Part shown: positions 3,935 through 5,168 of the stretch, one piece after another | Layout of the letters: each line of letters begins with the position of its first letter | How positions within the stretch are numbered: position 1 is the first letter of the stretch | Assembly: GCF_001598035.1 (NCBI RefSeq) | Contig: NZ_CP014835.1 | Location: 1,835,001-1,899,000, forward strand | Length of the DNA: 64,000 bases | Origin: Streptococcus halotolerans | GTDB taxonomy: Bacteria; Bacillota; Bacilli; Lactobacillales; Streptococcaceae | Direction: 5' to 3' | Notes under the pieces: model-generated | The model's database searches: none | Told to the model about the DNA's origin: nothing | What the model saw: only the letters and a program-made list of their open reading frames with translations | Position numbers and translations under genes: made by a program

Positions 3935-3939
3935 TATCG

Positions 3940-3967
3940 AGAAGTTAGCTAGTCTAACTTCTTTTTT
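3940..3967 (+). terminator. Rho-independent terminator of rnpA-yidC-khpB
   Basis: Perfect 9-bp stem AGAAGTTAG/CTAACTTCT with a 5-base loop, followed by a T-run. Confidence 0.9.
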
Positions 3968-3976
3968 ATATTGTTG

Positions 3977-4006
3977 ACCGCTTACAACCAAGTTTTGACC
4001 ACTTAC
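3977..4006 (+). promoter_or_regulatory. LytTR-type direct-repeat operator
   Basis: ACCGCTTAC (3977-3985) and ACCACTTAC (3998-4006) are separated by exactly 12 bp, or 21 bp start to start. This is the spacing of the ACCGTTTAG-N12-ACCGTTTAG boxes known for the HdrR/BrsR LytTR regulators of S. mutans. A -10-like TATCAT lies at 4040-4045, so the repeats sit upstream of a promoter in an activator position. The next gene encodes a LytTR protein, which points to autoregulation. Confidence 0.7.
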
Positions 4007-4078
4007 CTAAGAAAGTGTCACAAACCGATGAGGATCTGCTATCATAGAAGCATAAGGAAGGGGAAGAGGTGGTGGCAA

Positions 4079-4525
4079 ATGAAGTGGTTCTTTGAAAAAA
4101 GTTCGGTGGATGAGTTATCTATTATCATCAAAAATCAAGAGTACACCTCGGAGGTCGTAGACTTAATGGCCTATCTGGAAGCTTATGCTGGTAGTTCAAA
4201 CGGGATTGTTAGCGTTAAGACGTTTGATGATATTCTTATTCTGAAAATAGATGATATTATTGCGGCTGAGGTAGATGGTGATTACCTGACTATTCACTAT
4301 CATAATCGTGACATTTCAACACGCCAGCGACTGTATCAGTTTAAACAAAGGCTGAATCATCCAGATATGGTTCAAGTATCTAAACAAAGTCTGATTAATA
4401 TCCAACATTTAGAACGGATGGAGGCTTCTTTTTCGGGTAATATGACAGCCTTTTTAACAGGTGGTTTGACAGTGACTGTCAGCAGACGTTATTTGAAAGG
4501 TCTCGAAAAGCGATTGGGATTATAG
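4079..4525 (+). CDS. LytTR-family DNA-binding transcriptional regulator
   Basis: A 148-residue regulator with no receiver domain. Residues about 45-148 form a LytTR DNA-binding domain (DILILKIDDIIAAEVDGDY, then QVSKQSLINIQHL and VSRRYLKGLEKRL). The start is ATG 4079, giving MKWFFEKSSV with AGAGGTGG just upstream; the frame stays open further upstream, but across the operator. The next gene, 12 bp downstream, is a DUF3021 membrane protein. Such pairs are the LytTR regulatory systems, in which a membrane protein holds its regulator inactive until an unknown signal releases it (HdrRM and BrsRM in S. mutans, linked to competence and bacteriocins). Targets beyond its own promoter are not visible here. 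Confidence 0.88.
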   Translation: MKWFFEKSSVDELSIIIKNQEYTSEVVDLMAYLEAYAGSSNGIVSVKTFDDILILKIDDIIAAEVDGDYLTIHYHNRDISTRQRLYQFKQRLNHPDMVQVSKQSLINIQHLERMEASFSGNMTAFLTGGLTVTVSRRYLKGLEKRLGL

Positions 4526-4537
4526 GAGAAAAAGCAG

Positions 4538-4942
4538 ATGAAAAAAGTGATTGATTATTTTATGATGGGTGTAGGAATTGGCTCTATTATCTATATTCTT
4601 TGTTTGCTCCTATATGGTTTTGAACCAACTTGGGAAAATGCCCTGATAGATTGGTTGGCAAGTGGTCTCATGGGAGTCTCTAGCCTTATTTATGATCATC
4701 CCAAGTGGTCAGCGTTTAAAAAGAGACTGTTGAGTATGCTAAGCGTTTATCTTTTGGTGATGGGAATGTTGTTTTATAATGCTTGGTTACCGTTTGAAGT
4801 TGCCTATATCATTGGGGCAAGTGTGCAATTTCTTTTCATTTATGGCATTATTGTATTTTATTTTAGTTGGCAAAATAAAGACAGTGTGCGTAAAATCAAT
4901 CAAAAGCTAGCTAATAGAAAAATAAATCTTGACAAGAGATAG
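4538..4942 (+). CDS. DUF3021 membrane protein, likely inhibitor of the LytTR regulator
   Basis: A 134-residue integral membrane protein with four predicted spans (about 8-28, 36-52, 64-84, 90-112) and a basic cytoplasmic tail (INQKLANRKINLDKR). AGGAG precedes the ATG, and the gene follows the LytTR gene by 12 bp. Pairing with a LytTR regulator and the four-span shape match the membrane inhibitors of LytTR regulatory systems. Function as a sequestering inhibitor is inferred from those relatives. No catalytic motif is seen. Confidence 0.82.
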   Translation: MKKVIDYFMMGVGIGSIIYILCLLLYGFEPTWENALIDWLASGLMGVSSLIYDHPKWSAFKKRLLSMLSVYLLVMGMLFYNAWLPFEVAYIIGASVQFLFIYGIIVFYFSWQNKDSVRKINQKLANRKINLDKR

Positions 4943-5033
4943 AATTTACTATATTATAGTTTAGTATGTTTAGTAACTGATATCACAAATAGCCGGCTAA
5001 ACGAATACGAAAATCTATGAGGAGGTATTCACT

Positions 5034-5168
5034 GTGAAACGTACTTATCAACCAAGTAAAATTCGTCGTCAACGTAAACACGGATTCCGTCACCGCATGT
5101 CTACTAAAAATGGACGTCGCGTGCTCGCAAGCCGTCGTCGTAAAGGACGTAAAGTCTTATCAGCATAA
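5034..5168 (+). CDS. rpmH: 50S ribosomal protein L34
   Basis: A 44-residue, extremely basic protein of the large subunit. The sequence starts (M)[18 protein letters not shown] and continues [20 protein letters not shown], the standard L34 pattern. The start is GTG at 5034 with GAGGAGG eight bases upstream. In many bacteria rpmH lies directly before rnpA. Here it is separate and about 3 kb downstream, with its own terminator at 5190. Confidence 0.98.

Follow-up and report, generated by a model that had tools for sequence, protein, structure and literature searches.

The pair of genes that lies between jag and rpmH in Streptococcus halotolerans raises two questions, namely to which kind of regulatory system it belongs and what, beyond itself, it might control. 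The window analysed here is a 64,000-nucleotide stretch of that chromosome. LytTR Regulatory Systems (LRS) are reported to be widespread, mostly in Firmicutes, with signals that are called unknown and, in the parts of the paper drawn on here, no account of how regulator and inhibitor make contact (Zou et al. 2018, PMC6193735). The operators tabulated in that paper (Tables 2 and 3) are 9-bp repeats, usually 12 bp apart, that tend to lie 10 bp from the -35. In S. mutans, deletion of the membrane protein turns on each LRS operon, HdrR binds its own repeats and activates its own operon, and HdrM is a membrane inhibitor of the DUF2154 type; the parts of the paper drawn on here demonstrate the inhibitory role of the membrane protein for S. 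mutans proteins only (PMC6193735). As judged by homology and by a genus-wide footprint, which support both the circuit and the repeat geometry, the window pair is an LRS, a described but little-studied class.

The operon and its operator

The features of the locus are listed in Table 1. By Pfam, the upstream genes are rnpA, yidC and jag, with jag the last ahead of the terminator-like hairpin. Several properties are those of an LRS: the regulator has the LytTR domain as its sole Pfam domain, with no receiver domain found; directly downstream, after an intergenic gap of 12 bp, is the gene for a small multi-span membrane protein, for which DUF3021 is the only family above its own cut-off and which has no kinase domain; and 9-bp direct repeats, with a separation in the range of 11–13 bp, stand just ahead of the operon's -35. 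The first-pass annotation had described a receiver-less LytTR regulator and a four-span DUF3021 protein 12 bp apart, placed between the terminator of the rnpA operon and rpmH, and this is borne out by Pfam, hydropathy and the coordinates. The AlphaFold model of the LytTR protein has a mean pLDDT of 90.8, and its profile matched one PDB chain (3d6w, E 9.2e-6). A longer LytTR frame of 184 amino acids starting with TTG at 3971 was rejected, as it would cross the operator and as the S. thoraltensis and S. hyovaginalis proteins match the product of the 4079 start from its first residue onwards; an RNA element at the locus was likewise discarded, with no Rfam family within the window at gathering scores.

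Table 1. Positions of the LRS operon and its neighbouring features within the window
Feature	Position	Strand	Basis or remark
Terminator-like hairpin, 3' of jag, ahead of operator	3939..3963	+	10-pair stem, loop of 5, T-rich tail
Direct repeat 1, ACCGCTTAC	3977..3985	+	Sequence
Direct repeat 2, ACCACTTAC	3998..4006	+	12 bp after repeat 1
Weak -35, GTCACA	4017..4022	+	10 bp after repeat 2
Extended -10, TGCTATCAT	4037..4045	+	Contains TATCAT (4040-4045), TG extension
Receiver-less LytTR transcription regulator, 148 aa	4079..4525	+	PF04397 (E 2.4e-22); AlphaFold
Four-helix DUF3021 membrane protein (134 aa), presumed LytTR inhibitor	4538..4942	+	PF11457 (E 7.1e-22); hydropathy, charge; AlphaFold
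Tail motif INQKL (INxxL), codons in DUF3021 gene	4895..4909	+	Alignment of relatives
rpmH promoter-like TTGACA-17-TATTAT	4929..4957	+	-35 within 3' end of DUF3021 gene
rpmH (ribosomal protein L34)	5034..5168	+	PF00468 (E 1e-22); next gene downstream

The operator is arranged in the order ACCGCTTAC, 12 bp, ACCACTTAC, 10 bp, GTCACA, 17 bp, and TATCAT preceded by TG, such that the exact 12 bp between the repeats and the -10-like TATCAT that follows them, both proposed earlier, are confirmed, the latter within an extended -10 that is paired with a poor -35. The repeats are 21 bp apart from start to start, corresponding to two helical turns, and ACCNNTTA-N13-ACCNNTTA is found once in the window against an expectation of 0.01. 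To place this arrangement among its relatives we surveyed one locus in each of 84 Streptococcus genomes, taken from the top of the match table with others hand-picked from below; the underlying LytTR search matched 276 of 284 Streptococcus genomes, many of them weakly (E about 1e-6 to 1e-8) and presumably via other LytTR proteins. Among the 15 spacers from 6 to 20, a spacer of 12 scored best in 79 of the 84 loci, the score being that of the top-scoring repeat pair upstream of the first gene, with ties counted for 12, and the repeat is therefore a real footprint. The five exceptions are G199, G238, G245, G249 and G254, and in three further genomes a spacer of 12 is best with low scores (G079, 9 of 14; G135 and G258, 10 each). 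All 18 loci with a LytTR-proximal repeat pair carry TGNTANNNT at one fixed offset. At the G245 locus (L095) the LytTR match is interrupted by a stop and a clear repeat pair is lacking; this is perhaps a decayed copy.

Relatives, exporter and inhibitor

The named relatives of the window LytTR protein are those of S. thoraltensis (89% identity) and S. hyovaginalis (66%). The location of the pair had been thought uncommon for accessory control genes; this does not hold up, as the jag–rpmH slot is recurrent, with jag and/or rpmH adjoining the pair in 39 of the 84 Streptococcus loci. At 40% identity or above, jag and/or rpmH are within the fetched stretch at 38 of 45 loci, compared to one of 39 relatives under 40%, short stretches hiding some; the slot is thus the usual home of the closer orthologs. 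At five loci an opposite-strand open reading frame of 150–155 codons, similar among all five, lies ahead of the LRS or exporter (L042, L078, L118, and also L113 and L117), with jag beyond it in L042, L078 and L118.

An ABC-2 permease gene precedes the LytTR gene in 63 of the 84 loci, together with an ATPase gene where visible, and at five of the loci (G274, G010, G275, G074 and G151) a repeat pair is present before the exporter and also before the LytTR gene. The permease was not seen in the remaining 21, which comprise 13 exporter-less loci, three that are unclear (G199, G012 and G245) and five that are divergent. The exporter-less genomes are that of the window (G000), G270, G060, G155, G276, G183, G078, G152, G029, G223, G052, G161 and G037. 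A permease search gave no match in G000, G270, G060, G155, G276 and G152, weak matches only in G183 and G078, and strong matches in G274 and G010. A LytTR tree was built from 76 of the 84 loci, with G276, G039, G176 and G245 dropped as their computed starts led into a stop, and a further four loci, divergent with identity under 30%, excluded by choice; on this tree the presence of the exporter requires three changes, at least two of them forced by well supported branches. The lack of an exporter in G152 beside its presence in the close relative G010 looks like a local loss, and in the window's clade the exporter was either lost or never gained, the tree fitting both.

The DUF3021 protein is predicted to be a four-helix membrane protein, with four spans by hydropathy in 37 of 39 aligned inhibitors and, in the window protein, charges that place the N end, the middle loop and the C end inside. 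Its AlphaFold model (mean pLDDT 94.0) has helices at residues 2-26, 32-53, 59-80 and 88-133, the last of which exceeds a membrane span in length. Comparison of the model with known folds gave a best PDB match at E 1.4, and the sequence has no PDB match up to E 1. The nearly invariant residues include I120, N121 and L124, and 76 of 78 inhibitors have INxxL within their last 45 residues; because the Pfam DUF3021 match reaches residue 124, the motif belongs to the curated family. The words 'C-termin' and 'motif' do not appear in the main text of PMC6193735. INxxL is missing only from the first copies of the tandem inhibitors in G052 and G161, where two DUF3021 genes follow one LytTR gene (L148 and L149, respectively), and the second copies carry INQKL and INKKI, of which INKKI is not strictly the motif. 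We propose that the INxxL tail is a docking element that grips the LytTR activator.

In two lineages the inhibitors are much more divergent than their own regulators. The window proteins share 89% (LytTR) and 53% (DUF3021) identity with those of S. thoraltensis, and 66% and 73% with those of S. hyovaginalis. Similarly, L086 and L088 are 87% identical in LytTR, 80% in the ATPase, 70% in the permease and 39% in the inhibitor. More broadly, L086, L087 and L101 share with L088, L091-L093, L099 and L100 LytTR proteins of 83–87% identity and DUF3021 proteins of about 40%, with ABC proteins that are 70–81% identical in the four cross pairs compared. The identity comparison used 80 regulators and 78 inhibitors from 83 loci, with LytTR starts missing for L051 (G276), L095 and L102, and over 78 loci the regulator and inhibitor identities correlate (Spearman 0.68). 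In the first 100 codons, 37 of 43 informative LytTR sites unite the window with S. thoraltensis compared to 10 of 29 DUF3021 sites, a contrast reached by none of 20000 permutations (p 5e-5). The DUF3021 tree groups the window with S. hyovaginalis and G155 to the exclusion of S. thoraltensis (SH-aLRT 97), although an AU test does not reject a grouping of the window with S. thoraltensis (p 0.15). The divergence may reflect either exchange of the inhibitor or its faster change, both of which fit the data.

Targets and output of the circuit

The genome-wide search for repeat pairs that the first-pass annotation suggested as a means of listing the regulon yields nothing beyond the operon itself that stands out with the patterns used. 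The strict ACCRCTTAY pair without mismatch has one site in the 2.18 Mb genome, at its own operon. Allowing up to three mismatches gives 15 sites compared to 44 for a reversed control, and 18 genomes searched with up to one mismatch give 25 matches compared to 37; because the control exceeds the real pattern, weak targets are indistinguishable from chance. Two candidate sites, one at 233892 among those 15 (two mismatches) and one at 1313614 from the 18-genome search (one mismatch), were rejected as both are inside long reading frames. Eight of the 13 exporter-less genomes (G000, G270, G060, G155, G276, G183, G078 and G152) have one exact pair, always at the LRS operon, and five (G029, G223, G052, G161 and G037) have none, so that no wider regulon is visible; in G052 and G161 the own operon is matched at one mismatch. 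The exporter-carrying genome G074 carries, outside its LRS operon, a second exact ACCNCTTA pair at C1:242885-242913, which is a possible extra target.

The window DUF3021 frame extends 10 bases past the -35 of rpmH, and no terminator-like hairpin is found on the plus strand between the DUF3021 gene and rpmH. We examined this gap in the 30 loci whose rpmH lies no more than 700 bp from the first inhibitor gene, a set that leaves out three loci with rpmH at 752, 1878 and 1923 bp as well as G276, whose LytTR start was missed. The gap is free of a terminator-like hairpin in 25 of the 30; in two of the five hairpin loci (L035 and L039) a second inhibitor gene sits within it. In every one of the 30, rpmH has a TTGACA promoter; its -35 starts in 21 of them within the interval from 17 bases ahead of the end of the inhibitor stop codon to 3 bases behind it, and in 11 the stop codon is inside the -35 itself.

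Three other accounts of what the operon is for have been weighed against a self-contained switch. One is that the useful output of the circuit is rpmH, with activation of the operon reading through, or interfering at, the overlapping promoter. In 12 of the 13 exporter-less loci rpmH is located, in the same orientation, 3' of the inhibitor gene or the tandem pair (it was not seen in G037), and both the scarcity of hairpins in the gap and the overlap of -35 and stop codon suit this account; however, with a promoter of its own at all 30 loci, extra transcription of rpmH may not matter, the slot is shared by operons with an exporter, which is the obvious output in those cases, and of the 39 relatives under 40% identity only one neighbours jag or rpmH. 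We regard rpmH as a candidate output, and consider it unlikely to be the circuit's main purpose. Less probable again is that the LytTR protein also or mainly drives a blp-like bacteriocin locus about 325 kb away, in the manner of HdrR and BrsR with bacteriocin genes in S. mutans, its sites there being equally spaced repeats of the ACCATTTAG type. That locus (L145; G000 C1:2155000-2174900) encodes a LytTR response regulator, a 114-amino-acid LytTR protein, a GHKL kinase and a C39-peptidase ABC exporter. Four small frames were tested there, of which two are above the double-glycine bacteriocin family cut-off and one is below. This gene content speaks for the account, as do three of the four ACCNNTTA pairs in the genome, which are looser, ACCATTTAG-like pairs with the same geometry at 2.163-2.170 Mb in this locus. 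Nonetheless, its own LytTR response regulator explains the repeats, the half-sites differ (ACCATTTAG compared to ACCRCTTAC), and SMU_433/434, the nearest S. mutans type, is reported as the one LRS that left other LRS operons less than two-fold changed, bacteriocin genes not being addressed in the parts of that paper drawn on here (PMC6193735).

We also find it very doubtful that the operon is a remnant, whose true output was the exporter and whose two genes are now drifting towards loss. The ABC pair in front of most relatives, the contrast between G152 and G010, the high divergence of the inhibitors and the short LytTR frame of G276 (135 aa only, truncated at the N end) are all compatible with decay. 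Against this, both genes are open at normal length in 12 of the 13 exporter-less loci (LytTR 147-149 aa), G276 excepted, and all 13 retain the operator, with a spacer of 12 as the single best in each and with these loci distributed over several separate branches; the tree fits a window clade that lost the exporter as well as one that never had it. Taken as a whole, the locus is very probably a self-amplifying LRS in which a DUF3021 inhibitor would restrain a LytTR activator, by our proposal through an INxxL grip, and in which the paired operator is at its own promoter with no other exact site in the genome by the strict pattern.

Proposed working and comparison with known systems

For the self-amplifying LRS we envisage the following working, in which inhibition, DNA binding and self-activation by the window proteins are putative. 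The four-helix DUF3021 protein would keep the small LytTR activator in an inactive state at the membrane, with the long last helix ending in a conserved and probably cytoplasmic INxxL tail that grips it, until a signal relieves the restraint. The freed activator would then bind both repeats, whose layout places them 10 bp ahead of the weak -35, and bring RNA polymerase to the promoter with its extended -10. As this promoter is that of the operon itself, the switch would amplify both itself and its own inhibitor, and since the genome holds no other exact strict site, any output beyond the operon would be read-through into rpmH or would act through sites too degenerate to see. More speculatively, and in our view improbably, the LRS of this clade could be a closed switch, which acts on no DNA but its own promoter and has rpmH as its sole downstream gene, such that a membrane signal sets the dose of L34; INxxL would be a docking handle shared by inhibitors across several types of LRS, and the inhibitor that carries it would be exchanged or remade quickly, changing what is sensed.

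The locus offers a minimal case of an LRS, with two genes, one operator, no visible regulon and no exporter, and the jag–rpmH slot together with the tandem-inhibitor loci provides natural experiments for locating the part of the inhibitor that counts. Two leads that follow from it are the contact of the INxxL tail with the LytTR protein and the effect of the switch on rpmH.

Comparison with the characterized systems was made through genome G110, which we take to be S. mutans or close kin because its repeats match the published entries of SMU_433/434, BrsR and HdrR (PMC6193735); in its operon orthologous to the window pair, repeats and promoter letters alike are those of the SMU_433/434 entry, and the BrsR and HdrR repeats occur in this genome as well. 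The closest G110 relative of the window regulator is the SMU_433-type protein (39% identity over 140 residues, E 2.9e-27), with the other four LytTR matches, the HdrR/BrsR-type regulators among them, being weaker (E 2.1e-9 at best), and the window pair is thus of the transporter-linked type without the transporter. The earlier likening to HdrR and BrsR targets therefore stands for the spacing, which matches published LRS, and not for the nearest relative; similarly, the circuit called complete has the LytTR and membrane protein pair and the repeat geometry, and lacks the exporter found ahead of most relatives. In the parts of the paper drawn on here, the SMU_433/434 LRS resembles the window in having a LytTR regulator followed by a small membrane protein, and 9-bp repeats 12 bp apart located 10 bp ahead of a weak -35 and an extended -10 (PMC6193735). 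It differs in its ABC ATPase and permease genes, both of which are absent from the window locus, where the repeats are directly ahead of the regulator gene.

BrsRM and HdrRM are, like the window pair, LRS of two genes, and their repeats differ little in letters from those of the window, the BrsR ones being ACCACTTAT-12-ACCGCTTAT, in the parts of the paper drawn on here (PMC6193735). In contrast to these systems, the window has no bacteriocin or competence target visible by the strict repeat. INKKL occurs near the end of the BrsM-like protein of G110, as INxxL does in the window inhibitor, and the presumed SMU_295 has INSLI; the HdrM-like protein is longer (228 aa) without an INxxL tail. HdrM is stated to be of the DUF2154 type (PMC6193735), unlike the window protein. 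The S. pneumoniae spr1731/spr1730 LRS, likened here by its published operator only, has ACCACTTAC-12-ACCACTTGC, 10 bp and an extended -10 (PMC6193735). From these sequence comparisons, the window LRS is placed nearest to the SMU_433/434 type rather than to HdrRM or BrsRM, as a minimal form of that type.
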